IMG/VR virus record: IMGVR_UViG_3300036845_000183
Span: 1 to 55,180 of that record
Length of the DNA: 55,180 nt
Direction: 5' to 3' (one strand)
Source of the DNA: a virus
In this document: piece by piece, positions 13,604 to 51,631 of the stretch
How positions within the stretch are numbered: the first letter of the stretch is position 1
Layout: the number at the start of each line of letters is the position of its first letter
Translations under genes and position numbers: made by a program
The notes under the pieces: generated by a model
Databases searched by the model: none
What the model was told of the DNA's origin: nothing
Seen by the model: the letters and a program-made list of their open reading frames with translations, nothing else

Positions 13604-13630
13604 CATGCCGGAGCACACGGAGCCGGCATG
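13604..13630 (+). promoter_or_regulatory. Hairpin that covers the start codon of the ejection protein
   Basis: CATGCCGG (13604-13611) pairs with CCGGCATG (13623-13630), and the last three bases are the ATG of the 1,323-residue gene. The GGAG Shine-Dalgarno site lies in the 11-base loop. In RNA this 8-bp GC-rich stem would mask the start codon, suggesting translational control. Confidence 0.5.
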
Positions 13631-16600
13631 TCAGGACAGCAAGCATTCGGAGCAGCGTTAAACCAGGGCTTTGGCACGGGTGGTGAAGGCGCCCCCGAGC
13701 CGCCGCTTGACCTAAGCCCGCCAAGCCCAGGCGCCGCGACGCCCGACCAACAGTCGCCGGTATTCGGGTCCGCAACCTCGGGCATGACGTTCGGCCAGCC
13801 GAAGTACACTACTGACCCGAACGCCACTGCGCTGGACCAGTCGGCTAGCCTCATTCAGCAGCGAATCGACCAAGCTACCAAGATCAGCAACAACCCGTTT
13901 GCCGCGATCTTCGCGCCGGACGAAGTCGCCAAGGCGCGGGACTTTGTGCCACAGGCTGCCGACGCGCTGCAGAAGATCAAGCAACAGCAGCAAACCGGCA
14001 TCGACGCCAAAGACACCGCGCGCAACTGGGGCTTGACCAACCCGAATCAGTTCGGGCCGCAAACGACCGACACGACGCTTGCAAACGAGGCGTTGCGGCA
14101 GTGGAAGGACGAAGGCAATTTCAACGCGTACAAGGCGTTGAGCGGCCTCGGGCCGGAATGGAAGAACCGTGCCGAGCTGTACATGCCCGACGCCATGGGC
14201 AAGTTCGCAACGCACGTCAACGCGGTGCAGGACGGCATTACGGCGCTGAATGCCGCGGTCAACACGCGCAGCCAGACGGCGTACGAAGCGGCGCGTGACA
14301 AGTTGATCAAGAGCAACGATTTGTCGGCTATCGGCGTGCGGCCGGAGAACATCCCCGGCACCAAAGAGGGCTGGCTTGCGGCGCGCGGGCCGCTGGAGGC
14401 ACAGTACAATCAGGCGTCGCGCACCATCAAGGCGTTTCAGACGCGCCAGGACCAGCTCAATCAAGCCACGCCAATCACTGACGAGAAAGTTGGTAGCCGT
14501 ATCGAAGGTACGTTTCAATTCGGCAACGGCGAGACTGTGCCGGGCTTCAAGGCTGTATCGCTGCCCGGTTACGGCGATGTGCAAGGCGTCATGGGGCCGC
14601 CAGGCAGCAAAGACATTGCGCAGCGCGGCGTGACGTGGTCGAACGCAGCGCCCGAACAGGTCAAGACTGTGCAGGAGCAGACCAAGGCGCCCGAGGTGCA
14701 AGGCGCCATCAACAAGTACAAAATGGCGCGCGAGTTCAATGAAACTGCGCAAAACGACAAAATGTACAAATCGGCCGCCGGCATTGCGCTGATCAGCGAC
14801 GAACTGGGCGCGATCGGCCGCGACGTGTCGGAGGGCTCGAAAGCCGCTGGCAGCATCGGCCTGACGAAGATGCTGGAGGCGAAGTACGGCAGCGTCGACA
14901 ATGCACGCAACAAGCTTGCGCAAGAGGCCAGCGCCTTGAAAGACTGGCTGAGCAAAGGCGGCGATAAGAACCCGCGCCTGTCGCCACCGAGCATTCAGGG
15001 CATCAAGGACGTGGCGCAGTACAAGCACGACCAAGCGTTGAAAGAAGTACGGGACCGCATCGGGCAGCCGCTCGAAACCGCTGGCCGCTACGGCATGATC
15101 TTGAAGAACCTCGGGCTTGACAAGGAAATTACGGACAGCCCCGAAATTCGCGGCGTTTATGACCAGGCGCTGGCGCGCGGCAACAAGGAACTCGATAGTT
15201 ACCCCATGGTGGCGATCGGCGACCGTCGCGTCATGCTCCCGAGCGGCAGCAGCGTGCAAGGCGCCATCCAGGGCACGATGCAGCATCCGGCCTTGACAAC
15301 GCCCGCACAGCCGGCGCAAGGTGGCGGTGCGCCGGCCTTAACCGGAGCTGGTACTAGCGGCCCCTCGGGGAGCCCTGGCCCAAATTCACCCGCAGGCGGT
15401 GCGGCCCCTACAGCCCCCCAGCCTCCAACTGTGCCTCCTGCGGGTGGAGGCGGCCCCGCCCCGCAGCCCCAAGTCATCGCTGGCCAGTCCGTGAATGCGC
15501 CGATGCCGCCGGGTGCGTCGCCAGGCTACATGCAGGCAACGCAGCGTATCGAAAGCGGCAACGAGGCCAGCCCGTGGGCCGCCGGCACGCCACGCTCCAG
15601 CGCGTCAGGTGCGTTCCAATTTATTAATTCAACATGGGCCGCCGACAAACCGCCGGGCGCCCCCGCTCGCGCGGGCGACGCCACGCCGCAGCAGCAAGCC
15701 GACGCCTTCGCCACCCGCACGGCGAAGAACGCCGCGACGCTGACCAAGGCCGGCTTGCCGGTGAACGATGTCAGCCTGTACGTGGCGCACAATCTCGGCG
15801 AAGGCGCCGGGCCGAAGCTGCTTCAGGCCGACCCGAATGCCGACGCACGATCAATTGTTGGTGATAAGGCCGCAAGCAACAACCCGCGATTTTTCCGCGG
15901 CAAGCCGACCGTGGCAACCGTGCTGCAGCGATATTCCGACGCAATGCAGCCTCCGCAGGGTGCATGGGGCCGGCTAAACAGTCTGTTCATGCAAGGTATT
16001 CCAGCCGGGCAGCGCGCACAGGCGGCTCGAAACGTTGGCACTGCAGCAACCGAAAACGCGCCGGCCATCGGTTCGACGCTCGGCGCCATCGGAGGGTCAG
16101 TTGCCGGGCCGCTGGGCACGGTTGGCGGCGGGGCGGCGGGCGGCGCCGGCGGCCAAGTGCTCAAGGACTACCTGCAGGGTAACCCACAAAGCCCGACAAA
16201 CATCGCTGAGCAGGGTGCACTGGGTGGCGTGCTCGGCGTCGCGCCGGCCGGCAAGCCGTTGGTTGGATTGGCGACGCGCGTGCTCGGCGCGGGCAGTGTA
16301 GAAGCTGGCGCGGAGGCGGCGCGCGGCGGCAGTGCAGAGGACGTGGTCAAGGCCGGCGCGGTCGGGTCCGCGGCGGCGGCCGGCGGCGAAGCGCTGGGCC
16401 GCTTCATCGGCTATTTGGGCCGCCAAGCGCATCAGTTCGTGAGCAAGTACACGCAACCAGCGCAGAAAGAGCTGTTCGAACACGGGACAAACTTGGCCGA
16501 AGCACGGGCGACGCTGGAGAGCACGGAGCCCAAGTTGCCGGGCGATGGCGGCGACAACCCGAAGTATGTCGCTGCTGAGAAAGCGGAGGAAAAGTCAAAG

Positions 16601-17599
16601 GCTGCGATCGAAAAGCTTGGTCACGATCCTGACGACATCGCCTATGCGGCCGAACAGGCAAACCAAAAGGCGACCAAGGGCGAGGCGAACATGGAACGCC
16701 CGCTTGCGGCCGAAAAAGCTTCGGTCGGGCGGGGCTACCAGGCGCAGCGTGCGGAATTGGCTGCAACGCCAGTCAATCAGCACGTCGTGAACTCAGACGG
16801 TTCTGCATGGGACGCGTCCAAAGGCTACGGCATTGCGGACGGCCCCAAATCAATGGTTCGGACGGCTGAGAACCCGAAAGGCGCGGTCGACGAAGCCTAC
16901 GCGGCCGATGCGGAGAGCGCGCAACGGCTTGCGTCGGCGCCGGCCGCCAGTCCTGCGGAGCGCTGGGGCAACGTCGAAAAGGCGCAAGCCGAACTGCTCA
17001 GGAAGGAGCGTGACGCCTATGCGAACAATGATACGACGCGTGCGAACGCCATGCGCACGATGGCGACTAGTCTTCGCGGCGAGCAGGCTCGCATTGCGCG
17101 TGGGTTGCTTCCCGAAGGTCGCGCGCAATCGTTCATGGACGAATTGCATGACCTTGACGAACGGTACGCCAAGGTAATGAAGCTCAGCGAAGGCATCAAG
17201 CAGAGCAAGCTTGATTCGCTGCTGTCGAAGAACACACCGGAGAGCCGGGAGTTCGAAACGAACTTCAAGCGTATCGCGGGCGACGATGTATCGGCTATTC
17301 GCACGTTCAACGCGATCAAGGCCAATGCGCGCAACTCGCTCGGCGGCGAAGCAAAGCTCATGCTTCCCGTGATCGCGGGCGAAGTGACGGCGAACGCAAC
17401 GGGCATTCCGACCATGGGCGCCGCGTCGGCCGCAATTGGGCTGCACCGAACCTACAAGATCCTGGGTGACTGGCTGAGCGCGAAGGCGCTTGGCAAGACG
17501 GTCAAGTTTGCCGATTTCATGCGCCAGGAGACGAAGGCGCCGACCGTGAACGTCGGCGGACGCGCCGCGGTCGGAGCAGCACAGGAGGCACAGCAATGA
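13628..17599 (+). CDS. Internal virion/ejection protein with lytic transglycosylase domain
   Basis: A 1,323-residue protein. Residues 1-540 are helical and rich in Ala, Gln and Asn; 545-625 is a Pro/Gly linker; about 630-770 is an SLT-like muramidase domain (ATQRIESGNEASPWAAGTPR, then SSASGAFQFINSTW, with the catalytic Glu in RIESG and the typical SGAFQF); 815-860 is a Gly/Ala-rich segment that could cross the membrane (GSTLGAIGGSVAGPLGTVGG); the rest is helical. This layout fits proteins ejected into the periplasm to open peptidoglycan and form a DNA channel, as with T7 gp16. Start ATG lies in a hairpin. Confidence 0.88.
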   Translation: MSGQQAFGAALNQGFGTGGEGAPEPPLDLSPPSPGAATPDQQSPVFGSATSGMTFGQPKYTTDPNATALDQSASLIQQRIDQATKISNNPFAAIFAPDEVAKARDFVPQAADALQKIKQQQQTGIDAKDTARNWGLTNPNQFGPQTTDTTLANEALRQWKDEGNFNAYKALSGLGPEWKNRAELYMPDAMGKFATHVNAVQDGITALNAAVNTRSQTAYEAARDKLIKSNDLSAIGVRPENIPGTKEGWLAARGPLEAQYNQASRTIKAFQTRQDQLNQATPITDEKVGSRIEGTFQFGNGETVPGFKAVSLPGYGDVQGVMGPPGSKDIAQRGVTWSNAAPEQVKTVQEQTKAPEVQGAINKYKMAREFNETAQNDKMYKSAAGIALISDELGAIGRDVSEGSKAAGSIGLTKMLEAKYGSVDNARNKLAQEASALKDWLSKGGDKNPRLSPPSIQGIKDVAQYKHDQALKEVRDRIGQPLETAGRYGMILKNLGLDKEITDSPEIRGVYDQALARGNKELDSYPMVAIGDRRVMLPSGSSVQGAIQGTMQHPALTTPAQPAQGGGAPALTGAGTSGPSGSPGPNSPAGGAAPTAPQPPTVPPAGGGGPAPQPQVIAGQSVNAPMPPGASPGYMQATQRIESGNEASPWAAGTPRSSASGAFQFINSTWAADKPPGAPARAGDATPQQQADAFATRTAKNAATLTKAGLPVNDVSLYVAHNLGEGAGPKLLQADPNADARSIVGDKAASNNPRFFRGKPTVATVLQRYSDAMQPPQGAWGRLNSLFMQGIPAGQRAQAARNVGTAATENAPAIGSTLGAIGGSVAGPLGTVGGGAAGGAGGQVLKDYLQGNPQSPTNIAEQGALGGVLGVAPAGKPLVGLATRVLGAGSVEAGAEAARGGSAEDVVKAGAVGSAAAAGGEALGRFIGYLGRQAHQFVSKYTQPAQKELFEHGTNLAEARATLESTEPKLPGDGGDNPKYVAAEKAEEKSKAAIEKLGHDPDDIAYAAEQANQKATKGEANMERPLAAEKASVGRGYQAQRAELAATPVNQHVVNSDGSAWDASKGYGIADGPKSMVRTAENPKGAVDEAYAADAESAQRLASAPAASPAERWGNVEKAQAELLRKERDAYANNDTTRANAMRTMATSLRGEQARIARGLLPEGRAQSFMDELHDLDERYAKVMKLSEGIKQSKLDSLLSKNTPESREFETNFKRIAGDDVSAIRTFNAIKANARNSLGGEAKLMLPVIAGEVTANATGIPTMGAASAAIGLHRTYKILGDWLSAKALGKTVKFADFMRQETKAPTVNVGGRAAVGAAQEAQQ

Positions 17600-19471: not shown

Positions 19472-20230
19472 GTGGTCAATATCGTCAACCAGGGCACGCT
19501 TGGCGGCGGGTTTCGCCATTATTCCGGCCTCTTGCCTGCGATCAACGGCGCGGGCGATCCGCATCACGCATCTGTACGCCTTTTCCACGTCCCGGCGGCC
19601 AACGTGGCGACGATTTTTCGCGGCGACATCATGGTGTTCGGCGGCGCCGTAGTCGGCAACCAGGGCGCGGCGGATATCCCGTCGAACATTTCGGCGCCAT
19701 CCACCTCAGTTGTGATCGGCAACGGCGGTGGTTCGGGGCTCGGTAACCAATCGATCGCGCCGAACGTCATCAAATGGACGCCTGGCGACGCTACCACAAC
19801 CAGCATCATCGCGGGTGTTTGCGTCGGCTTCGGCCCGCTTACGCTGTACATGGCCAAGAACGGCTTTCAGTACATCCCGACGCTTACGGAGGCCTGGGTC
19901 TATGTCGAGACCGACCCGGAAATCGAGATGTACGCGACTGTTCCGACCGTACCTGGCACCGCATTCAATTTGCTGCTCAACGACGGTTGCGACGTCAAGG
20001 CGAACGCTGGTTTCCAGTCAACGCGGTTCGGCGTGTCCGGCGTGTCGATCGACCCGGCTTCTTTCGCCACCACGGCGACGCTGCCGCTTCGCGTGCTGTC
20101 GTCCGGCGAGCAGATCGGCAACGACCCGACCGCCACCGGCTTCGTTGCGAAGGTGACCTTCAACAAGCTTCGCCACTACAAAGGCAACCCCGGCAGCGCC
20201 GCCGCGAACGTTCCGTTCGTCGCGGATTAA
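19472..20230 (+). CDS. Virion-type structural protein, possible decoration protein
   Basis: A 252-residue beta-rich, Gly/Ala/Thr-rich protein starting GTG with GGAGG seven bases upstream. No catalytic motifs; composition (many small residues, few charges) is typical of phage head or tail decoration proteins. It is the first gene of the long rightward block. Assignment is by composition and place only. Confidence 0.5.
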   Translation: MVNIVNQGTLGGGFRHYSGLLPAINGAGDPHHASVRLFHVPAANVATIFRGDIMVFGGAVVGNQGAADIPSNISAPSTSVVIGNGGGSGLGNQSIAPNVIKWTPGDATTTSIIAGVCVGFGPLTLYMAKNGFQYIPTLTEAWVYVETDPEIEMYATVPTVPGTAFNLLLNDGCDVKANAGFQSTRFGVSGVSIDPASFATTATLPLRVLSSGEQIGNDPTATGFVAKVTFNKLRHYKGNPGSAAANVPFVAD

Positions 20231-20244
20231 CAGGAGCAACCACG

Positions 20245-20769
20245 ATGAAGAAATTTCTGATTGCCGCGCTCTTTGCGCTGCTTCCTGCGATGGCGTTTGC
20301 GCAAACCGTCACGTCACTTCCCGAGGTCATCCCCTCCGGCGCCGTGACCGATCTCGGCAACGGCCCGCTGGAATACAAGCTGGTACAGGGCAACGCCGGC
20401 TTGTTTACGTCGCAAGGTTCCGGTACCGGCAGCACGTCGGGTTCGTCTACGGCGCTGACACTGACCGCGGTACCGACAACGCCGCCCTGCCAAGGTTGCA
20501 TCATCGCGGGCGCCGGCATCACATCGGGCACGACGGTAGCTGCATTCAATGCGGTTACCAGCATCACGCTTTCGGCGGCGATGACCGTAGTTGGCGGTAC
20601 CACGGTCACGTGGGGCGCCGCGTGCCCCGCTATCGGCAGCGCGCCTTCGGCTCTGGTGCAGGCCAGCGTCGGCGGCGATGTTCCGTTCTATACGCAGTCT
20701 CGCGTCTGCGGCTCCGGCAACTTCGGCCCTGGCGCTCAGGTACTGCCCTTCGCCATCGGCGCGCACTGA
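20245..20769 (+). CDS. Exported protein 1 (signal peptide), virion-like
   Basis: A 174-residue protein. MKKFLIAALFALLPAMAFA then QT is a classic Sec signal peptide with AxA cleavage. The mature part is beta-rich and Thr/Gly-rich with Cys in PPCQGCIIAG, AACPA and RVCGSG, possibly disulfide-bonded outside the cytoplasm. AGGAG precedes the ATG. Directly followed by the O-antigen ligase-like gene. Confidence 0.65.
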   Translation: MKKFLIAALFALLPAMAFAQTVTSLPEVIPSGAVTDLGNGPLEYKLVQGNAGLFTSQGSGTGSTSGSSTALTLTAVPTTPPCQGCIIAGAGITSGTTVAAFNAVTSITLSAAMTVVGGTTVTWGAACPAIGSAPSALVQASVGGDVPFYTQSRVCGSGNFGPGAQVLPFAIGAH

Positions 20770-20772
20770 GTT

Positions 20773-21843
20773 GTGTTCTGGCTGGGCGCCATCGTCGCAC
20801 TTTGCTACGTTCCGGGCTTAACCGGAGCGTATATTGCGACGCAGTGGCCCGTCTTGGCCGTGGTCATGTCGTTCGGTTTGTTGCGTAGCGCCCCGTTTAC
20901 GTTGCTTCATTTACTCGGGGCGCTTTTTCTTCTTTACGCTGCGGTGCATGCGTTCTTCACGCCCGCCCCCCATGACGCGGTGTTCGGCCTGTGGCTGGTC
21001 GTCATCATGGCGCTGACCGTCCGGTTTGGGTCGACCGTGACTGACACGCGCGGACTGTACGCGGGCTTGGCGCTCGGCGCCGCAGTATCGTCGGCCCTCG
21101 CTGTGGCGCAGTATTTCGGCCTGTACTGGCCGCCCATGTCGTCACCCGCGCCGGCAGGGCTCTACGTAAACAGCGTGCAGCAAGGTACTATTCTGGCGTT
21201 GCTGATCGTCGCCTTGATGACTGAGCGCATGTGGTTTTGGGCGCTGCCGCTTCTGCCGGGCTTGGTTCTGGCGCAGTCCCGCGGGGCATGGCTGGCCCTC
21301 GCAATCGGGCTGCTGGGTTGCCGCATCCGACATGTCGGAGTGCTGGGACTGGTTGTGGCGGTTGGCTGCGCTATTCTATCGGTCACGCTGTCATCATCCG
21401 ACCAGGAACGCATGCTGATCTGGAACGTCGCGTGGCACGGCCTGACATGGTTCGGTCGCGGACCTGGCATGTTCTATGCGGTGACGATTTGGCGAGAAGG
21501 TACGGCATGGTTTCCGGGATATGTGCACAATGACGCACTTCAGCTTATTTTCGAGTACGGCGTGGGGGCGGTGTTGCCGATCGCTGTTTTCGGTTTCGTG
21601 CTCAGTCGAACTGAGGCCAGAGAGTGGCCCGTTGTGCTCGCCTTTGTGGCGGCGAGCTGCTACACGATGCCGCTCTACATGCCGGTTACCGCTTTTCTGG
21701 CTCTGGTCGCTGTGGGGCGTGTTCTTCGTACTCATGCTCGGATTCTCGCTAGCAGCAATCACCGCCGACAGTTTGGCGTACCGAGGCGATCCGATGGCAG
21801 CTACCAAAGCGGCGCAACTGTTTCCGTGGAACCGAGTTATTAG
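20773..21843 (+). CDS. O-antigen ligase/polymerase-like membrane protein (WaaL/Wzy type)
   Basis: A 356-residue protein with 9-11 hydrophobic segments between 1 and 305. Diagnostic motifs of the Wzy_C/WaaL superfamily are visible: LAQSRGAWLALAIG (about 168-181) and, after the large external loop, VHNDALQLIFEYGVGAVLPI (about 250). Family members join or polymerise O-antigen units at the periplasmic face of the inner membrane. In a phage it could change host LPS to block re-adsorption by kin or rivals. The C-terminal 60 residues are polar and unlike the family. Lies between exported-protein genes, GTG start. Confidence 0.78.
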   Translation: MFWLGAIVALCYVPGLTGAYIATQWPVLAVVMSFGLLRSAPFTLLHLLGALFLLYAAVHAFFTPAPHDAVFGLWLVVIMALTVRFGSTVTDTRGLYAGLALGAAVSSALAVAQYFGLYWPPMSSPAPAGLYVNSVQQGTILALLIVALMTERMWFWALPLLPGLVLAQSRGAWLALAIGLLGCRIRHVGVLGLVVAVGCAILSVTLSSSDQERMLIWNVAWHGLTWFGRGPGMFYAVTIWREGTAWFPGYVHNDALQLIFEYGVGAVLPIAVFGFVLSRTEAREWPVVLAFVAASCYTMPLYMPVTAFLALVAVGRVLRTHARILASSNHRRQFGVPRRSDGSYQSGATVSVEPSY

Positions 21844-21857
21844 AGAGAGGGTGCCCC

Positions 21858-22208
21858 GTGGCTGATGTCGATGCGCTAAACCTGTACCCCAATAGCTACA
21901 TGGCGAAGGCCGTCAAGCTCGGGCAATCCCGGTTCATTTCGGTGGACCAGCCCTCGCTACCGATCGGATCGCAGAACAACGTGTCAATCGCCGCGGCAAC
22001 GACGCTGACGGTGCCCGCCACAGCCGGCTACGCGATCATTACGGCGGTCGGCGGCCCGCTCTACCTCACGACGGATGGCAGCACGCCATCGGCTGCGAAC
22101 TACTCGATTACGCTGGCCAGTGGTGCTTCGGTGTCGTTCTACGGCCAAGCGACCCTGACGGCAATCAAGGTGCAGGGTACCAGCATGTCGGTGGAGTACC
22201 TGCAGTGA
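21858..22208 (+). CDS. Small virion-associated-type protein
   Basis: A 116-residue beta-rich protein, MADVDALNLYPNSYMAKAVK; the C-terminal half (YLTTDGSTPSAANYSITLAS) looks like a small beta-sandwich. GTG start at 21858. Probably structural; no named family recognised. Confidence 0.5.
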   Translation: MADVDALNLYPNSYMAKAVKLGQSRFISVDQPSLPIGSQNNVSIAAATTLTVPATAGYAIITAVGGPLYLTTDGSTPSAANYSITLASGASVSFYGQATLTAIKVQGTSMSVEYLQ

Positions 22209-22657
22209 GCGGACGATCATTTTTCTGGGTTCTGCTTCTCTTTGCCGTGCTCGCTGGAGCTAGCTTCGGATTACGAGCAGAACCCGGCTTGCCGAATGGC
22301 GGGACCGGAGGAGGCGCCGCCACTTCGATCACCATAACGCCGAACGTCACGCCAACTGACTGTTCGGGCTCTATTACCGCGGGCGGCACGGCGCAGCCGC
22401 TCATAGCCGCTCAGACTACGCTGCACGGCTTTACTGTCGTGAATATCGACACTGGGCACAATGCCGAGCCGCTATGGCAGTCATTCACGGGGACCGCGGC
22501 GCCTCTCACTGCCGGGTCTTATCCACTGCCGGCACCAACGGCGACGACATTTGCAGGCGCGGGGTCGTGGACTTCACCACCTGGTTTCGGAACCAATCAC
22601 GCCGTCTCGATTATCGGCGCTACGACCGGGCACATCTTTTCCTGCACGTGGTGGTGA
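22205..22657 (+). CDS. Exported protein 2 (signal peptide)
   Basis: A 150-residue protein. SFFWVLLLFAVLAGASFG is a hydrophobic signal segment; the mature part is Thr/Gly-rich with Cys in TDCSGS and FSCTWW. GTG start overlaps the previous stop (GTGA). Beta-rich, similar in style to the neighbouring exported proteins. Confidence 0.55.
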   Translation: MSGRSFFWVLLLFAVLAGASFGLRAEPGLPNGGTGGGAATSITITPNVTPTDCSGSITAGGTAQPLIAAQTTLHGFTVVNIDTGHNAEPLWQSFTGTAAPLTAGSYPLPAPTATTFAGAGSWTSPPGFGTNHAVSIIGATTGHIFSCTWW

Positions 22658-22659
22658 AC

Positions 22660-23130
22660 ATGCGCGGTTTCATAACCCTCCTGTTTCTGCTATGCGCGAG
22701 TGCCGCCTCAGCTCAATGGGGCGGCGGGGGCGGCACTACGAATAGTGTTTCGACGGCCAGCAACACCCAGCGGCAGCTTTGCTCGATTCGCGCCGCGGAC
22801 TTCAATTCCACCGCCGATCAGTTGTGCGTGCTGCCGGCCGCCGTGACGACCTACAAGATCATTGAGATATTTGAGACCAACTGTTCGTCGTCACCCGGCA
22901 GCGCGGCCGGCGGCGTGTATACGGCTGCATCCAAAGGTGGTACCGCCATCGTCGCGGCGTCGCAGACGTTCGTGACGGCGCAGGCGATCGCACCGACCAT
23001 TCCCAACACCTTAGCCACCAACATGGCTACCACCCGTTTCACCGCCAACCCTCTGTACCTCAGCTTGACCACTCCGAAGGGCAGCGCCGTCACGTGCGAC
23101 ATGTACGTGATTGGGGTGGACCTGACGTGA
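22660..23130 (+). CDS. Exported protein 3 (signal peptide, virion-like fold)
   Basis: A 156-residue protein. MRGFITLLFLLCASAASA then QW is a signal peptide with ASA cleavage. The mature part (TYKIIEIFETNCSSSPGSAA, later LYLSLTTPKGSAVTCDMYVI) resembles small beta-sandwich virion proteins, but these normally lack signal peptides. Several Cys fit an oxidising compartment. Confidence 0.6.
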   Translation: MRGFITLLFLLCASAASAQWGGGGGTTNSVSTASNTQRQLCSIRAADFNSTADQLCVLPAAVTTYKIIEIFETNCSSSPGSAAGGVYTAASKGGTAIVAASQTFVTAQAIAPTIPNTLATNMATTRFTANPLYLSLTTPKGSAVTCDMYVIGVDLT

Positions 23131-23951
23131 ACTGGTTTCTGCTTGCCCTATTCTTGCTCGGCTCGGCACCAGCCGCCGCGCAGTGGGAGGGCTGCGCACC
23201 GGGGTTTTGCAACCTAGCGGGAACATCAGCAGGAGCGCCGCAAACGCTTGATGGCGTGGCTACCGGTACTGGCCACGGTAGCCTTACCGTGCCAACAGCG
23301 GGGCTGACGACGACCAAAACCAACGATATCTTGGTAGCTTACGTCGTAAATAACAGAACAAGTGGGCAGGGCAGCGCAACTACGGTGTCAGGTATCACGG
23401 ACAGTAGCTCGTTGTCGTGGGTTCGACGTGGCAGCGCTTGCAGTTTTCAGAGCGGCGCGGCGGGAACGCCGTTCGTCACGGTGGAAATCTGGTGGGCGCT
23501 GGCGGCTTCCGTACAGGCCTCTGACGTACTGTCAATCACGTTTGCGGCTGCGTACGACAATGCAACTGCTATCGTTTTCGGAGTTTCGGGAAGCAAGACG
23601 AGTGCACCTTTTGACGTAAACGCTTCGTTGCCAAATTGTGCGAACAGCAGCGCGACGTCGGCCCCGACTGCTACGGCCGTGTCCACTACGTGCAACAACA
23701 CGTTCATGATCGCAGGGGCTGGGTCGGCAAACACCGCAGCCAACCCAGGCGCTCAAACGGTCGGAACATCCCCAGTTACCTTTACCGCGATAAGCTTGAA
23801 CAACCTGCAAGCCGGGGGCGTTAATTTTATGCAAGCTGTCGCTGAATACTCAGTTTTTTCGTCGGCTCAGTCTTCCATCAGTCCTGGGTTTTCTTCAAAC
23901 TGGGCTGGCTGGGATATTTTGGTTGATGCTTTGCAATCTGCGTCATGCTAG
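23127..23951 (+). CDS. Exported protein 4 (signal peptide)
   Basis: A 274-residue protein beginning MNWFLLALFLLGSAPAAA then QW, a signal peptide with AAA cleavage. The mature part is Thr/Ser/Asn-rich beta protein with paired Cys. GTG start overlaps the previous stop. Related in style to 22660-23130 (both mature parts start QW). Confidence 0.6.
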   Translation: MNWFLLALFLLGSAPAAAQWEGCAPGFCNLAGTSAGAPQTLDGVATGTGHGSLTVPTAGLTTTKTNDILVAYVVNNRTSGQGSATTVSGITDSSSLSWVRRGSACSFQSGAAGTPFVTVEIWWALAASVQASDVLSITFAAAYDNATAIVFGVSGSKTSAPFDVNASLPNCANSSATSAPTATAVSTTCNNTFMIAGAGSANTAANPGAQTVGTSPVTFTAISLNNLQAGGVNFMQAVAEYSVFSSAQSSISPGFSSNWAGWDILVDALQSASC

Positions 23952-27266: not shown

Positions 27267-28570
27267 GCTACAATTCCACCACAGATTTTTTGGGCCTTTG
27301 GCGGAATAACGCCGGCCAAGTCTCAAAAGTCGAGATGCCCGGCCTGGACTACATCGTGGCCGCGCTGGCGCGCGCCGGCCTCCTTGTGGTGTCGGTCTCG
27401 GCGACGGCGCCCGTCGCCAACCAGCCGACCACGGCTTGGCTGCAAACCGCCGTCCCGAGCTTTTCGGGCGAAGGTGTCTTCCAGCTCTGGAACCAAGATA
27501 CCGCTTCATATGCTCCGGCCACGCCCGAGCTGTTCATGGACTTCCTGCAAGCATCGGCGGGTGAGAGCGGCATATCGTGGTGGACGACCACGGGGCCGCC
27601 AATCAACACTCTCGGTCAAAACGGTGACTTGGCGATCCGCCTGGATCTCCCGAACGGCATTTACGGCCCCAAGACCGCAGGTGCTTGGCCGACCACGCCG
27701 ATATCGGGTACTGTAGCAGGATTGACGAGCGCGGAGTTCGACGGCCTGTTTGGCTCCACTCCGGGGCAGTTGATTTACCGCGGCGCTTCTGCTTGGCAGT
27801 CGCTTCCGGTCGGAGGGGGCAATAATACAGTTCTTGCGTCCCCCTTCGGCACCCTACCCGTGTGGGAGAGCTTCTATACATTGCTTGATAATTTGATAAG
27901 CAGTGCGCAGGGCTCCATAATGTTCAGGGGTTCTGCCATATGGCAGCCGCTGCCACCCGGCAGCACTGCAAATCAGTTGTTAGTTACAGGTGGCGCAGGC
28001 GCTAATCCGGCATGGGAAAATCTATCGACGCTTTTCGATGCGACTTTCGGAGGATCCGCACAGGGTAGCATTCTGTATCGTAATGCCAGTGTTTGGGCTC
28101 AACTAGCACCTGGCACCGCAGGCCAACTTCTGACCACGGGTGGCGCAGGCACGAATCCGGCATGGGCTAACTCTCCCAATCAATTTCCATCCGGCACTGT
28201 CATGCTATTCCAGCAGTCAGCCGCACCCACGGGATGGACGAAGTTAGTTGCAGTTAACGACGTAGGACTTCGTATCGTAAGTGGGTCCGTTACTGCGGTA
28301 GGCGGGGTGGCATTCAGCACGGTGTTTGCGCAGACTGCGGTAGGCAATACGACGTTGTCGGTCTCGCAGATCCCTGCACATACTCACCAAGTGGTGGCCA
28401 GCCCCGGCGTCAATGGAACGACGTATGCACCTAACACAGGTGCTAACCAAGGCGCCTCTCCTGCTTCATCCATCACCAGCGACGGCGGTACGGGCGGTGC
28501 GGGTGCTCATGCGCACGCCGTAACTCTAAACTTGTCCTACATCGACGTGATCATGGCGAGTAAAACTTGA
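27263..28570 (+). CDS. Tail fibre with collar domain (fibre paralogue 1)
   Basis: A 435-residue protein. Residues 1-95 are an adaptor shared with the next two genes (MSYNSTTDFLGLWRNN, MPGLDYIVAALARAGL). Residues 155-305 hold three imperfect repeats of about 45 residues (GQLIYRGASAWQSLP, GSIMFRGSAIWQPLP, GSILYRNASVWAQLA). Residues about 310-435 are a phage tail-collar domain (PSGTVMLFQQSAAPTGW) and the C-terminal HxH metal sites IPAHTHQVV and GAHAHAVTL. This is a receptor-binding fibre tip. Confidence 0.82.
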   Translation: MSYNSTTDFLGLWRNNAGQVSKVEMPGLDYIVAALARAGLLVVSVSATAPVANQPTTAWLQTAVPSFSGEGVFQLWNQDTASYAPATPELFMDFLQASAGESGISWWTTTGPPINTLGQNGDLAIRLDLPNGIYGPKTAGAWPTTPISGTVAGLTSAEFDGLFGSTPGQLIYRGASAWQSLPVGGGNNTVLASPFGTLPVWESFYTLLDNLISSAQGSIMFRGSAIWQPLPPGSTANQLLVTGGAGANPAWENLSTLFDATFGGSAQGSILYRNASVWAQLAPGTAGQLLTTGGAGTNPAWANSPNQFPSGTVMLFQQSAAPTGWTKLVAVNDVGLRIVSGSVTAVGGVAFSTVFAQTAVGNTTLSVSQIPAHTHQVVASPGVNGTTYAPNTGANQGASPASSITSDGGTGGAGAHAHAVTLNLSYIDVIMASKT

Positions 28571-30549
28571 TGTCCTATAGCCCGACGACTGATTTTTTCG
28601 CTCTCGTACGCCAGACTTCGGGCGGCGAAGAATTTGCGAGCATGCCGGGCCTCGATATGGTCGTGGCCGCGCTCATGCGCGCCGGCTTGGTTACCTTGGT
28701 GGTCGGGCAGACGGCGCCGATCGTAAATCAGCCAAGTACGGCATGGTTCAAGCCCTCGGTGCCTTCGTGGGTTGCGGAAGGTGTGCTGTTCCTATGGAAT
28801 ACGACCACGCAGCAGTACGAGACTGCGACGCCGCAGCTATGGACCAACATCCTCACGCTGCATGCGTCGTTCGTCGCCGCGGCTGCCACGAGCGATCCGT
28901 TATCCGTCAAGGCAACGGGTGCTCTGGGCGACGGCGTCACGGACGACACCTTTGCCATTCAGACGGCGTTGAATACGTCGAAAAATGTGTTTGTTCCTGT
29001 CGGTACCTACATCGTGTCGGCTACGCTGCAGATGCAGCCGGCCGGAGCAATTCGCGGCTCAAACAGGGACACCGTTCAGATACGGCGCTCGACGGCGTAC
29101 GGTCCTACACTGCAGTGTGGCAGCACTGTGATAGGCGTCAACGCGGGCTCCTGCACTGTCGAGAACTTGTGGTTTTTCCAAGTTACGCAATTCAACAACG
29201 GCCCGAGTTACGTCGCGGGAGTGTCGACGGTCATCCTCAACAAAGAAACGAACCCGCACGTTGCGATTTACAAAGGGCAGAATGTTTTGCTCAACGGTCT
29301 CCGGGCAACCGGTGCCGGCGGCATCAGCATATATGGTTGCACCGCCGCATTTTGCGACAGCCTGTTTGTTAACGGTTGCTGGGATGACAACCAAGTTGGG
29401 CTGCAAGAGTGCTTCGCCAACATCGGCTTTTACCAGTTCACGGATGCCAACAATAACGTTTCGTTCAACACAGAGTGCCGCGTTCGCAGGTGCTATTTGG
29501 GCGGCTTCGGCCACACGCCAAATCAGAATGTGACGATAGGCAACGTGGTCATTTCGTTGCCGGGCAACTTCGGCTCGGCTTCCGGCATTTACTGCAACGC
29601 TTCCGAGGGTTTTGAGGTCCACGACAGTTACATCGGCGGCAACAACCGCAACAACATCATGCTGGACCGACAAGGCATCTTCGGCTTGGTCCGCATCCAC
29701 CATAATTTCTTCGACAGCGCTCGCACAGGCTCCATAAAAATTCAAGCCAGTGCAGCGGGCGGCGGCCCCAGCATTGTTGAGATTGACCACAACGTCTCCC
29801 AGGGTTATGGCTTCGATCAGAGTTTCTTAGTTGTTGCTGATCTCGGTATCGGCGAGCCGGCTTGCGCCAATTTGGACATCAGCAATAACATCGGCCAAGG
29901 GTACAACCAGTGCGCCGTAAGCCTGAGCGGTGTGCGCGGCTTCTCGCACAGCAACAACCAGTGGCGCGACTACAACAAATGGGGCAACACGAACAACGAT
30001 CCGGCTATCAACTCGGGCCTGTACGCCCTCAACTGCACCATGGGAGACAGTTCGAACAACTGCTACGGCGGCGGCACCAACGATCCGTCCGGCGCCAATA
30101 CTTGCCAGTACGGAAGTACGTTCGTCAACCCTACCACTTGCACGGCTTCGCACGAGAACGGCCAAAACTTAGGTTTAATTGTTTTGGGTTTGTCGGGTTA
30201 CGAAAGCAATCTTGACCAGTGGATTGCTTACACCCCGACCGTTTCGTCACAGACAGGCGCCTACGGAGCTGCTTCGGCAACGGGCTTCTACCGGGTGGAC
30301 AGCAACACGGTTCACGTTCACTACCACGTAACAGTTACGGGCGTAGGCACTGCGACAACGGCGTCACTCATAACGCTACCCCTGACGGCTGTCGTACCCG
30401 TGCAGACGGGCTCGGCGCGCGACGAAACGGCTGGCTTCCAGTTGATTTCTTACTGTTCAGACCAAGTGCATCTGTTTCATCAGAAATACGATGCAACATT
30501 TCCGCCTGGCAGTTACAGCGGCAGTTTCACGTATGAAAAGATAAGCTAG
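28570..30549 (+). CDS. Tailspike with right-handed beta-helix (fibre paralogue 2)
   Basis: A 659-residue protein. The N-terminal 95 residues are the shared adaptor (MSYSPTTDFFALVRQTSGG). From about 113 a pectate-lyase-like parallel beta-helix starts with the signature LGDGVTDDTFAIQTALNTSK and continues with many Asn-rich rungs (ISIYGCTAAFCDSLFVNGCW, later IHHNFFDSARTGSIKI). Such spikes depolymerise host O-antigen or capsule. Residues about 545-659 form a C-terminal trimerisation/receptor part. ATG at 28570. Confidence 0.85.
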   Translation: MSYSPTTDFFALVRQTSGGEEFASMPGLDMVVAALMRAGLVTLVVGQTAPIVNQPSTAWFKPSVPSWVAEGVLFLWNTTTQQYETATPQLWTNILTLHASFVAAAATSDPLSVKATGALGDGVTDDTFAIQTALNTSKNVFVPVGTYIVSATLQMQPAGAIRGSNRDTVQIRRSTAYGPTLQCGSTVIGVNAGSCTVENLWFFQVTQFNNGPSYVAGVSTVILNKETNPHVAIYKGQNVLLNGLRATGAGGISIYGCTAAFCDSLFVNGCWDDNQVGLQECFANIGFYQFTDANNNVSFNTECRVRRCYLGGFGHTPNQNVTIGNVVISLPGNFGSASGIYCNASEGFEVHDSYIGGNNRNNIMLDRQGIFGLVRIHHNFFDSARTGSIKIQASAAGGGPSIVEIDHNVSQGYGFDQSFLVVADLGIGEPACANLDISNNIGQGYNQCAVSLSGVRGFSHSNNQWRDYNKWGNTNNDPAINSGLYALNCTMGDSSNNCYGGGTNDPSGANTCQYGSTFVNPTTCTASHENGQNLGLIVLGLSGYESNLDQWIAYTPTVSSQTGAYGAASATGFYRVDSNTVHVHYHVTVTGVGTATTASLITLPLTAVVPVQTGSARDETAGFQLISYCSDQVHLFHQKYDATFPPGSYSGSFTYEKIS

Positions 30550-48880: not shown

Positions 48881-50790
48881 TTGGACATTCTTTGCGCCGT
48901 GTAGCCCTCGCAATCCAGCGGCAACCCGGCCGTCCAGTGCCGCGGCCGGCGCATGATCGCGCGCATTTGCTCCGACCGCTCTTTCGCTACGGCTGCCGGC
49001 GCCAGGGCCAAAATCGAGTCGTACACGTCCAAGATCAACACGACGTCCGGCAGCTCGCGTTCAATGTCGGCTTCGGCGGCGGTAACCAAGTCCCTGGTAC
49101 AGCTCTGGCAAAAAATTTCCAAAAGCGAGCCGCCGAACGCCTTTTGACGAAGCATCGCGCCAAACTTCCCGCGAAAGAAGCACGCTTCGCCTTCGTGCGT
49201 AATGTGCGCCGAGTAATGCGGCACTGCGCGGCCCGAGGGTAGCAGCATCCACACGGTTCCGTGCTGATCTTTCTGAAACGCAGTTTTGCCGGCGGGGAAG
49301 ACGCGGCCTGGTTGCTCATAGATCGCAAACCTGAATGCGTCGGAAAGTTCGTACCATGCTTTCCGCAGGAGCGGATTCGCTTCGCGATACCCGTCGATAT
49401 CCGATCGGGCTTCGTTTTCGGTCATGTTCCGGCCCGCGCGGCGCTGGTGCGCCATGTACGTCTTCCAACCGAGTTGATAGTTGCCCCCCAGCGTGACTGA
49501 TTTGAAATTCTGGCGTTCGATCGGATGGGTTTTCTTAGTCGCGGTTGCTGGCAACTTCAAAATCGTTCTGGCGTTATGCATGTACAGATCGCCATCCGGC
49601 TGTGCCAGAATGCTCAAACGCTCAGTGTCGCCGGCTTGCCACAGGGCTATGAAAAGCTCCGCACTTTTCAGATCGTTGTCGCAAATCATCCAGCCTGGAG
49701 GTGCGACGATGCAGCCACGAAGCGCGTCAGTCAACGCAACGTTGCCGTACTTGAAACCCATCTTCAAACCGGCAATGACTTGTTCGGTATCGTACTTGCC
49801 AGAGGGCCGCGCGATGTTGAACATATTGGCGCCTTCGGAGGTGCCCCGACCCGATCGGGCACCGAAGTACCGCGTAGCGTCTTTGTAGAAGCCGCCGACG
49901 TGTCTATCGAGTAGTGCTTGTGCTTTGAGCGGTGCCGAACCGCCCTCTGCTTGAAGCAGTTCCAGCACGATACGAACTTCGGGCGGCATGTCTTCATCGG
50001 CGAGTGATTCGGCAATGATATGCTTTTGCGTGCTTTCCAATCGGTAGCCGCGGCTTTGGCACCACTCAGCGATGCGCTGACGCTGCGACAGTTTCGTCAC
50101 GGCGTTCTGCGTCAACTCCATTAGCTTGACGGTGCTCTCCTGTTCAATGTCCTGACGGCGTAGCGCGATCGCGGTTGCCAACTCGATATCGATCGGGAGC
50201 CCGATTTCATTCTTACGCCACGTTCGCTCAAAGATCAGGCGTTCGTCGGCCGATAGCGGCGGCAAGCGCGCGTCAAGTTCGACCAGACAGCGGACATCTT
50301 GAACGTTGTATTTGAGCAGCCCTTCGAACAGGTGAATGCGCTCGTCAAAGGTGCCGTCACGTTGCGGCCTGCATGTCGCCATGACGAGCGCACGGCCCGC
50401 AGGATCTTTGCCTTTGAGCCCAAGCACCGTGCAAACTTCATCCAGTCCGCCAGGCAGTGCGAGCGCTTGGGCGCGGCCCATTGTGCAGTCGATTTTTGAA
50501 AGTGGGATGTCGAGAAATGGATTTTGCCGTTTGATGACATTGACGTCAAAATTGGCATGGTGTGCGACGAAGCGCCGGCACGCGCGGATGTCGTCATAGA
50601 AAGCCGATATGGGGTGCGACCCGAGCTGCGGGTGTACGGTGCATGAAGTTTTGAGTTGATTTCGGAACTGCCAAACCGCGGTCGTGATCTGGGTCGAAGG
50701 GTCGGCTGCGTACCGACGCGCGCCGGCCTTTTTCAGGTCTACTCTCGATCTTGTCTCAACGTCGGCTAGCAGACTATCGGGGCATATCAT
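48877..50790 (-). CDS. Family A DNA polymerase with 3'-5' exonuclease domain
   Basis: A 637-residue protein. Exonuclease domain: LADVETRS (about 7-15), AHHANFD, YNVQDV. Polymerase: motif A ICDNDLKSAELFIALWQAGD (about 366-383), motif B RQNFKSVTLGGNYQLG (about 425-440) and motif C LDVYDSI (about 584-591). Motifs A (DNDLKSAE instead of DYSxIE) and C (DVYDS instead of xHDE) are atypical, yet catalytic Asp are present. Replicates the phage genome together with the primase-helicase. ATG overlaps the upstream stop. Confidence 0.88.
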   Translation of the reverse strand: MICPDSLLADVETRSRVDLKKAGARRYAADPSTQITTAVWQFRNQLKTSCTVHPQLGSHPISAFYDDIRACRRFVAHHANFDVNVIKRQNPFLDIPLSKIDCTMGRAQALALPGGLDEVCTVLGLKGKDPAGRALVMATCRPQRDGTFDERIHLFEGLLKYNVQDVRCLVELDARLPPLSADERLIFERTWRKNEIGLPIDIELATAIALRRQDIEQESTVKLMELTQNAVTKLSQRQRIAEWCQSRGYRLESTQKHIIAESLADEDMPPEVRIVLELLQAEGGSAPLKAQALLDRHVGGFYKDATRYFGARSGRGTSEGANMFNIARPSGKYDTEQVIAGLKMGFKYGNVALTDALRGCIVAPPGWMICDNDLKSAELFIALWQAGDTERLSILAQPDGDLYMHNARTILKLPATATKKTHPIERQNFKSVTLGGNYQLGWKTYMAHQRRAGRNMTENEARSDIDGYREANPLLRKAWYELSDAFRFAIYEQPGRVFPAGKTAFQKDQHGTVWMLLPSGRAVPHYSAHITHEGEACFFRGKFGAMLRQKAFGGSLLEIFCQSCTRDLVTAAEADIERELPDVVLILDVYDSILALAPAAVAKERSEQMRAIMRRPRHWTAGLPLDCEGYTAQRMSK

Positions 50791-51560
50791 TCAAAGCACC
50801 CACACGGTTTTTCATCGTGCGGATCATCGGCAGGAGCTGTTTTCGTGTGTAGAAAATTCTCCCACGAAAATGTGCGTCCCAAGCCTTTTACTTTTTTGGC
50901 CCCCACCAAGCCACGCCGTTCAATTTCTAAAGCGCGCTGCATCAGATCCGGGTACTCGGAAGCTAAGTCCAAAATTTCAGCTTTCCGCATGTGCGGGCAG
51001 AAGAAACACGAAGACTTACCCGGCAGCGGCAGCCGGTGCTTTAGTATCTCCACTTCGCATTCCGGGCGCCCCCACTCCCATTCGATAAGTGGGTACCGCA
51101 TCCTATATTTGCCGTCCACTACGCCAAAACGTGCACGTTGCGGCTCTCCAAAGTCGTAGCCGATTAACTTAGTTACCAACTCTCCGCGGCCCCAAACTTC
51201 GCGTAACACGGGATTATTATTGCACCACTTATTTTGCGGTTCTATCTTAAATTTCTGACTGCATGTTTTCCAACCATACGCAACTGATGGTAGCGTCCCC
51301 AACCGTAAACAATCGTCTTCTAAAGACTTCCATTGTTTATCACGTCTGGAACGATGCAGGATTGTGATCGCCGGGTAGCCTCGCCGTACTAAGTACTCGG
51401 AAAATAAGTGAAGATTCTTGTATGTTTTCGGTTTCTCTCCTCCGGTATCCGCAAAAAGGATAGCATAGGGTGCTGGCTCGTTTCGATCGAGCATGCCGAG
51501 ATACATAGCTTCGGAGTTTGTACCTCCACCGAAAGAACCTACTACAACATCTTGAGTCAT
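50787..51560 (-). CDS. PP-loop / PAPS-reductase-like protein
   Basis: A 257-residue protein. N-terminal VVVGSFGGGTNSEAMYLGML is a PP-loop-like SGGxDS variant. The middle has YLVRRGYPAITIL, and the C-terminal part carries SSCFFCPHMRKAE plus a final CGCFE, giving Cys that could hold a metal or Fe-S cluster. Such proteins are related to sulfate-reduction, DNA phosphorothioation (DndC-type) or tRNA-modification enzymes. Next to the DNA polymerase, DNA or nucleotide modification is a guess. Start ATG at 51560. Confidence 0.7.
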   Translation of the reverse strand: MTQDVVVGSFGGGTNSEAMYLGMLDRNEPAPYAILFADTGGEKPKTYKNLHLFSEYLVRRGYPAITILHRSRRDKQWKSLEDDCLRLGTLPSVAYGWKTCSQKFKIEPQNKWCNNNPVLREVWGRGELVTKLIGYDFGEPQRARFGVVDGKYRMRYPLIEWEWGRPECEVEILKHRLPLPGKSSCFFCPHMRKAEILDLASEYPDLMQRALEIERRGLVGAKKVKGLGRTFSWENFLHTKTAPADDPHDEKPCGCFE

Positions 51561-51606
51561 CAGTACGTCAACCCCCGTCTTGTGCGTTCCCACCATATGA
51601 AGCGAT

Positions 51607-51631
51607 GCCAACCCCACCAGTAGGGGTTGGC
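51607..51631. other. Inverted repeat between 51639 and 51560 genes
   Basis: CCAACCCC (51608-51615) and GGGGTTGG (51623-51630) form an 8-bp GC-rich stem with a 7-base loop, right after the stop of the small gene at 51639 and before the PP-loop gene. No T-run; possible pause site or translational control. Confidence 0.45.

Follow-up and report, generated by a model that had tools for sequence, protein, structure and literature searches.

Known Wzy_C proteins and their likeness to the window gene

One fold is used for three activities, namely O-antigen ligation, O-antigen polymerisation and protein O-oligosaccharyl transfer. Among phages, Wzy_C O-antigen polymerases are encoded by D3 and epsilon15; the O-antigen is changed by the polymerase in D3, and a periplasmic Arg and a His are essential (PMC4815439). 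A further Wzy_C protein is encoded by VarioGold (PMC9658991). In the bacterial enzymes, R215, R288 and H338 of E. coli WaaL and R224, R298 and H349 of PglL form the essential set, and PglL genes typically adjoin the gene of the acceptor, outside LPS loci, while PglL and WaaL are not distinguishable by simple sequence comparison (PMC3643930).

The gene described here was identified in a record from an uncultured podophage group (IMGVR_UViG_3300036845_000183), of which the whole stretch of 55,180 nucleotides was analysed and is referred to as the window.

20773..21843, + strand: Wzy_C-superfamily (GT-C_B fold) membrane protein, 356 aa, GTG start

Like D3 Wzy-beta and the epsilon15 polymerase (386-392 aa), its product is a phage membrane protein with a Wzy_C motif, an HN-containing motif and the order Arg-Arg-His. 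However, D3 and epsilon15 are temperate and, according to their annotations, have an integrase nearby and the inhibitor Iap as a companion, whereas the window gene lies in a late operon of virion and signal-peptide genes, where neither an integrase nor an Iap-like companion of the D3/epsilon15 kind was identified. Against a profile of the D3, epsilon15 and VarioGold proteins, hhalign gave a weak match (probability 15%, P 0.0017) with collinear motifs, and single-sequence comparisons with these proteins were negative or insignificant. D3-type polymerases were present in 12 phage records (Pseudomonas and Variovorax) and are not close to the window family. VarioGold VG_p25 resembles the window gene in being an O-antigen-ligase family Wzy_C gene beside the gene of a signal-peptide protein (PMC9658991), but it belongs to a temperate phage, stands on the strand opposite to the late genes, is closest to D3 Wzy-beta (31% identity) and gave no match to the window family. 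The earlier note had called a ligase or polymerase type rare in phages, which holds, although D3, epsilon15 and VarioGold are precedents. Wzy_C-type genes are known in a few temperate phages and apparently not in this kind of podophage.

The fold and the Arg/Arg/His blocks are shared with WaaL of Cupriavidus metallidurans (7TPG) and of E. coli K-12, while the loops of the window protein are shorter. Sequence searches by HMM or hhalign gave nothing significant against E. coli WaaL, and there was no direct match to 7TPG or other PDB sequences. PglL and PglS share with the window protein the superfamily, the catalytic set and a gene position beside an exported Ser/Thr-rich protein, but the window protein is much shorter, and neither a PglL_A nor a Wzy_C_2 domain was found in it. 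The search for PglL_A (PF15864) gave no match in control genomes either, Wzy_C_2 was absent from the Pfam scans of the window protein and its orthologues, and the PglL-type QxN tract was seen by inspection only in the distant relative L030.

Family membership and conservation of the Wzy_C gene

The open reading frame and both motifs on which the earlier note had relied are present at 20773-21843, and the motifs belong to a family spread over 15 contigs. About 11 membrane helices are predicted for the window protein. SRGAW occupies residues 169-173 and VHNDALQLIFEYG residues 251-263, the latter containing an HX10G tract from H252 to G263 that is invariant among the aligned relatives. Pfam Wzy_C (PF04932) matched the window protein alone with E = 5.8e-4 and 20.1 bits, under the cut-off of 31.7, and because this score is weak, the reading of the two motifs required independent support. 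Such support came from the family. Wzy_C was found in 9 of 11 core orthologues, of which L005 and L011 exceed the cut-off individually (top score 37.5 bits), so that membership of the window protein comes via its relatives. In the genome-wide scan, which is imperfectly sensitive and missed the true gene of L012, 11 of the 15 viral records passed the cut-off.

Scans of viral contigs yielded orthologues of approximately 350-360 aa, most of them on contigs of 50-54 kb, with identities to the window protein of 52-61% in the core set and down to 47% for L023. L022, L023 and L026-L030 are further, more distant viral relatives. The 19 aligned sequences show no substitution at R213, H252, N253, D254, L256, G263 and G129, and 18 of them retain R170. 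In two close pairs, dN/dS amounted to 0.024/0.21 (~0.12) and 0.037/0.38 (~0.10), respectively, and the window gene is under purifying selection. The orthologues, the invariant residues and the low dN/dS together indicate that the gene is real and selected. In L026 (2481-3566), SHAG replaces SRG and the first catalytic Arg is a His, while the equivalents of R213 and H252 stay. A relative with 41% identity in L025/L047 (IMGVR_UViG_3300014657_000022) has a frame broken by a stop after ~150 residues and may be a decayed copy or an assembly error.

No match for the window protein was obtained in NCBIfam and PHROGs, and neither this protein nor those of the distant relatives L027 and L030 had a homologue in tblastn searches of 50,697 records of cultured phages. 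With the patterns used, no close homologue was found in 84,980 bacterial genomes; the first scan gave none and the second only distant Legionella proteins, so that no donor was identified. Terminase, head-closure protein and polymerase matched cultured phages at only 23-30%, spread over many hosts, and gave no host prediction.

Predicted structure and catalytic residues

The AlphaFold2 model built with 19 sequences reached a mean pLDDT of 82.9 and a pTM of 0.83, with a C-terminal tail that is disordered from about residue 330. Its top PDB match in Foldseek was the ligand-bound cryo-EM structure of WaaL, 7tpg_B (E 3.6e-6, probability 1.00, TM 0.53), followed by the SEDS glycosyltransferase RodA, 6pl6 (probability 0.90, E 0.11), to which there is no sequence relation. 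An earlier model from 11 close homologues (pLDDT 61) had no PDB match, and it was the addition of distant viral and Legionella relatives to the alignment that improved the model and gained the match. A Legionella Wzy_C protein was assigned to the viral profile by hhalign with 95.6%, and the same protein aligned to WaaL 7tpg in phmmer, with TRG, VRLKIW and AHND blocks common to both.

By motif, R170, R213 and H252 of the window protein are the counterparts of WaaL R215, R288 and H338. Their order is the same, with spacings of 43 and 39 residues, which in E. coli WaaL are 73 and 50. In the model, these three residues would lie at the periplasmic face, in agreement with the loop charges. The earlier note had proposed a structure prediction as a check on its reading, and this check revealed a WaaL-like fold with the Arg and His residues in place. 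Together with Wzy_C in the relatives, WaaL as the top structural match and the conserved catalytic positions, this bears out the assignment to the WaaL/Wzy family. Among predicted viral structures, the closest was that of a 434-aa, uncharacterised protein from Arthrobacter phage Faja (probability 1.00, E 0.024). This may be a Wzy_C-like protein from a phage that infects a Gram-positive host.

The late block around the gene

The neighbours of the Wzy_C gene in the window are the following.

13628..17599, + strand: internal virion protein, 1323 aa, with a transglycosylase domain; left border of the late block
19472..20230, + strand: conserved late protein, 60-77% identity in the phage group; tree marker
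20245..20769, + strand: small exported virion-like protein, Sec signal peptide MKKFLIAALFALLPAMAFA^QT
21858..22208, + strand: small virion-like protein directly downstream of the Wzy_C gene, in some relatives
22205..22657, + strand: protein with signal-peptide-like N-terminus, PHROG 22789 (unknown function)
22660..23130, + strand: signal-peptide protein (MRGFITLLFLLCASAASA^QW)
23127..23951, + strand: Ser/Thr/Ala-rich protein with signal-peptide-like N-terminus (VNWFLLALFLLGSAPAAA^QW)
28567..30549, + strand: tail spike, pectate-lyase domain PF12708 above cut-off

With the transglycosylase virion protein upstream and the pectate-lyase spike and a terminase gene downstream, the placement in a virion gene block proposed earlier is confirmed. 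Of the four neighbouring signal-peptide genes also claimed, all are recognised by inspection (20245, 22205, 22660 and 23127), but the strict home-made predictor accepts only 22660 in the window; it also accepts several orthologues of the 20245 protein. The latter has four conserved cysteines (C88, C91, C133 and C161 in 20227-frame numbering) and an invariant S/T-rich stretch. Its stop lies 3 nt before the Wzy_C start, and translational coupling of the two genes is likely from this gap. From its pectate-lyase spike, the phage is likely to attach to a surface polysaccharide or to degrade it.

Distribution along the phage group

The Wzy_C gene occupies one slot between the same late phage genes in 15 carrier contigs, and the pair of 20245 and Wzy_C genes is syntenic in the core contigs. 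The 20245 family has 30 good loci in 29 contigs, with Wzy_C adjoining in 12 and absent beside it in 17; these 12 contigs and three others (the window, L005 and L010) make up the carriers. When the 17 sister contigs were scanned genome-wide for Wzy_C, with the type of scan that had missed the true gene of L012, no match was obtained. In the tree of the 19472 protein, several branches of which are weak, carriers and non-carriers are intermixed and at least six gains or losses are required. Since both kinds are mixed and the position is always the same, the enzyme appears as an optional cassette in a fixed slot, a pattern that would match the expected behaviour of a host-surface modification gene. 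A dependence of the exported neighbours on the enzyme was considered and rejected, as the 17 sister contigs have exported proteins without it. The signal-peptide cluster and Wzy_C are therefore no single obligate system.

Searches of ten records gave no tyrosine integrase, and only 2 of 15 records had a serine recombinase, encoded in an open reading frame of ~200 aa. From these records of unstated completeness, we infer that the phage group is mainly non-integrating. The two serine recombinases, possibly DNA invertases, are located in L012 (G009:39458-39862) and L027 (G012:16234-16632), and the exported proteins of L012 and L027 have a common C-terminal domain.

Proposed function and alternative explanations

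The safest statement is that the gene encodes a predicted Wzy_C/GT-C_B enzyme whose substrate would be a lipid-linked glycan on the periplasmic side of the membrane; the sequence does not tell whether it is a ligase, a polymerase or a protein O-glycosylase. Beyond this, we somewhat favour a catalytically competent inner-membrane glycosyltransferase for the late remodelling of host surface polysaccharide. Two points speak for this reading: a polysaccharide-type spike is encoded by the phage itself, and the Wzy_C polymerases of D3 and epsilon15 change the O-antigen. Against it count the weak profile match to the D3, epsilon15 and VarioGold proteins, the missing match to E. coli WaaL, the missing Iap-like companion and the His in place of R170 in L026. 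Synthesis of the enzyme would be late and coupled to that of the exported protein encoded upstream, and the enzyme would sit in the inner membrane of the host, its residues R170, R213 and H252 facing the periplasm. Its substrates may be undecaprenyl-pyrophosphate-linked intermediates of the host O-antigen or of another surface polysaccharide, whose polymerisation or ligation it would alter. The polysaccharide recognised by the pectate-lyase-type spikes could thereby be altered or masked, and infected cells and debris would then neither capture progeny nor admit competitors. Given the short protein and its short periplasmic loops, we lean slightly towards a polymerase like those of D3 and epsilon15 rather than a ligase.

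Gene neighbourhood is what argues for an O-oligosaccharyltransferase of the PglL/PglS kind, which would transfer host lipid-linked glycan en bloc onto the adjacent Ser/Thr-rich exported phage proteins and which we regard as possible, if unlikely. In the podophage group the gene directly follows that of an exported, S/T-rich, disulphide-type protein, and in the otherwise dissimilar phages L026 and L027 it directly follows a different signal-peptide gene, an arrangement reminiscent of PglL genes beside their acceptors, outside LPS loci, in a family whose sequences are inseparable from WaaL by simple comparison. The exported proteins without the enzyme in the sister contigs speak against it, as do the missing Wzy_C_2 domain, the restriction of the QxN tract to L030 and, weakly given the equally negative control genomes, the missing PglL_A match. 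Its more specific form, in which co-encoded exported virion-like or spike proteins are decorated late in infection with the surface glycan of the host, seems quite unlikely, and we know of no precedent for a periplasmic glycosylation route for phage proteins.

That the protein is non-catalytic and acts in a dominant-negative manner, binding lipid-linked glycan or the host Wzy/WaaL/Wzz complex and so blocking surface polysaccharide synthesis, would be in line with its short length for the family and with the small inhibitors of host polymerases that phages encode (Iap, in D3 and epsilon15). It is nevertheless very unlikely, as the catalytic Arg/Arg/His set is under purifying selection and would be unneeded for mere binding. 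A passenger gene or an assembly artefact, with host DNA in a viral contig and no role in infection, could account for the patchy distribution, but is extremely improbable and largely refuted by synteny and selection: the slot is the same in all 15 contigs, dN/dS is ~0.1, and the patterns used gave no close homologue in the 84,980 bacterial genomes.

On the preferred reading of surface-glycan remodelling, the locus extends what is known of phage O-antigen polymerases, which so far come from a few temperate seroconverting phages, to an enzyme of the O-antigen polymerase/ligase type in the late operon of uncultured, apparently non-integrating podophages. The repeated gain and loss of a compact Wzy_C gene in this operon suggests that such phages may also rebuild the glycan targeted by their spikes, beyond degrading it. 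With ~330 ordered residues and the full Arg/Arg/His set, the window protein is a small and testable member of Wzy_C. The locus also raises the question of whether phages glycosylate their own exported proteins via a Wzy_C pathway.

Exported late proteins and other genes of the phage group

No GT2 glycosyltransferase was found in these phages. In many late proteins of the group, a Sec-type signal peptide is found together with domains resembling those of virion or spike proteins. One combines a signal peptide and a 20245-like domain with a weak pectate-lyase spike match (PF12708, E 1.2e-4, sub-cut-off), and another a signal peptide with a GDSL esterase match (E 1.4e-5, sub-cut-off). Signal-peptide late proteins are located at L064:5700-6471 / L069:2372-4810, L053:5072-6495, L007:14454-15794, L062:4883-6484 and at 20245-23951 of the window. 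Exported proteins of a spike- or depolymerase-like kind would be unusual. In the early/replication block of the window, a phosphoadenosine phosphosulfate reductase-like gene is located at 50787-51617 (PHROG 424, E 3.5e-32).
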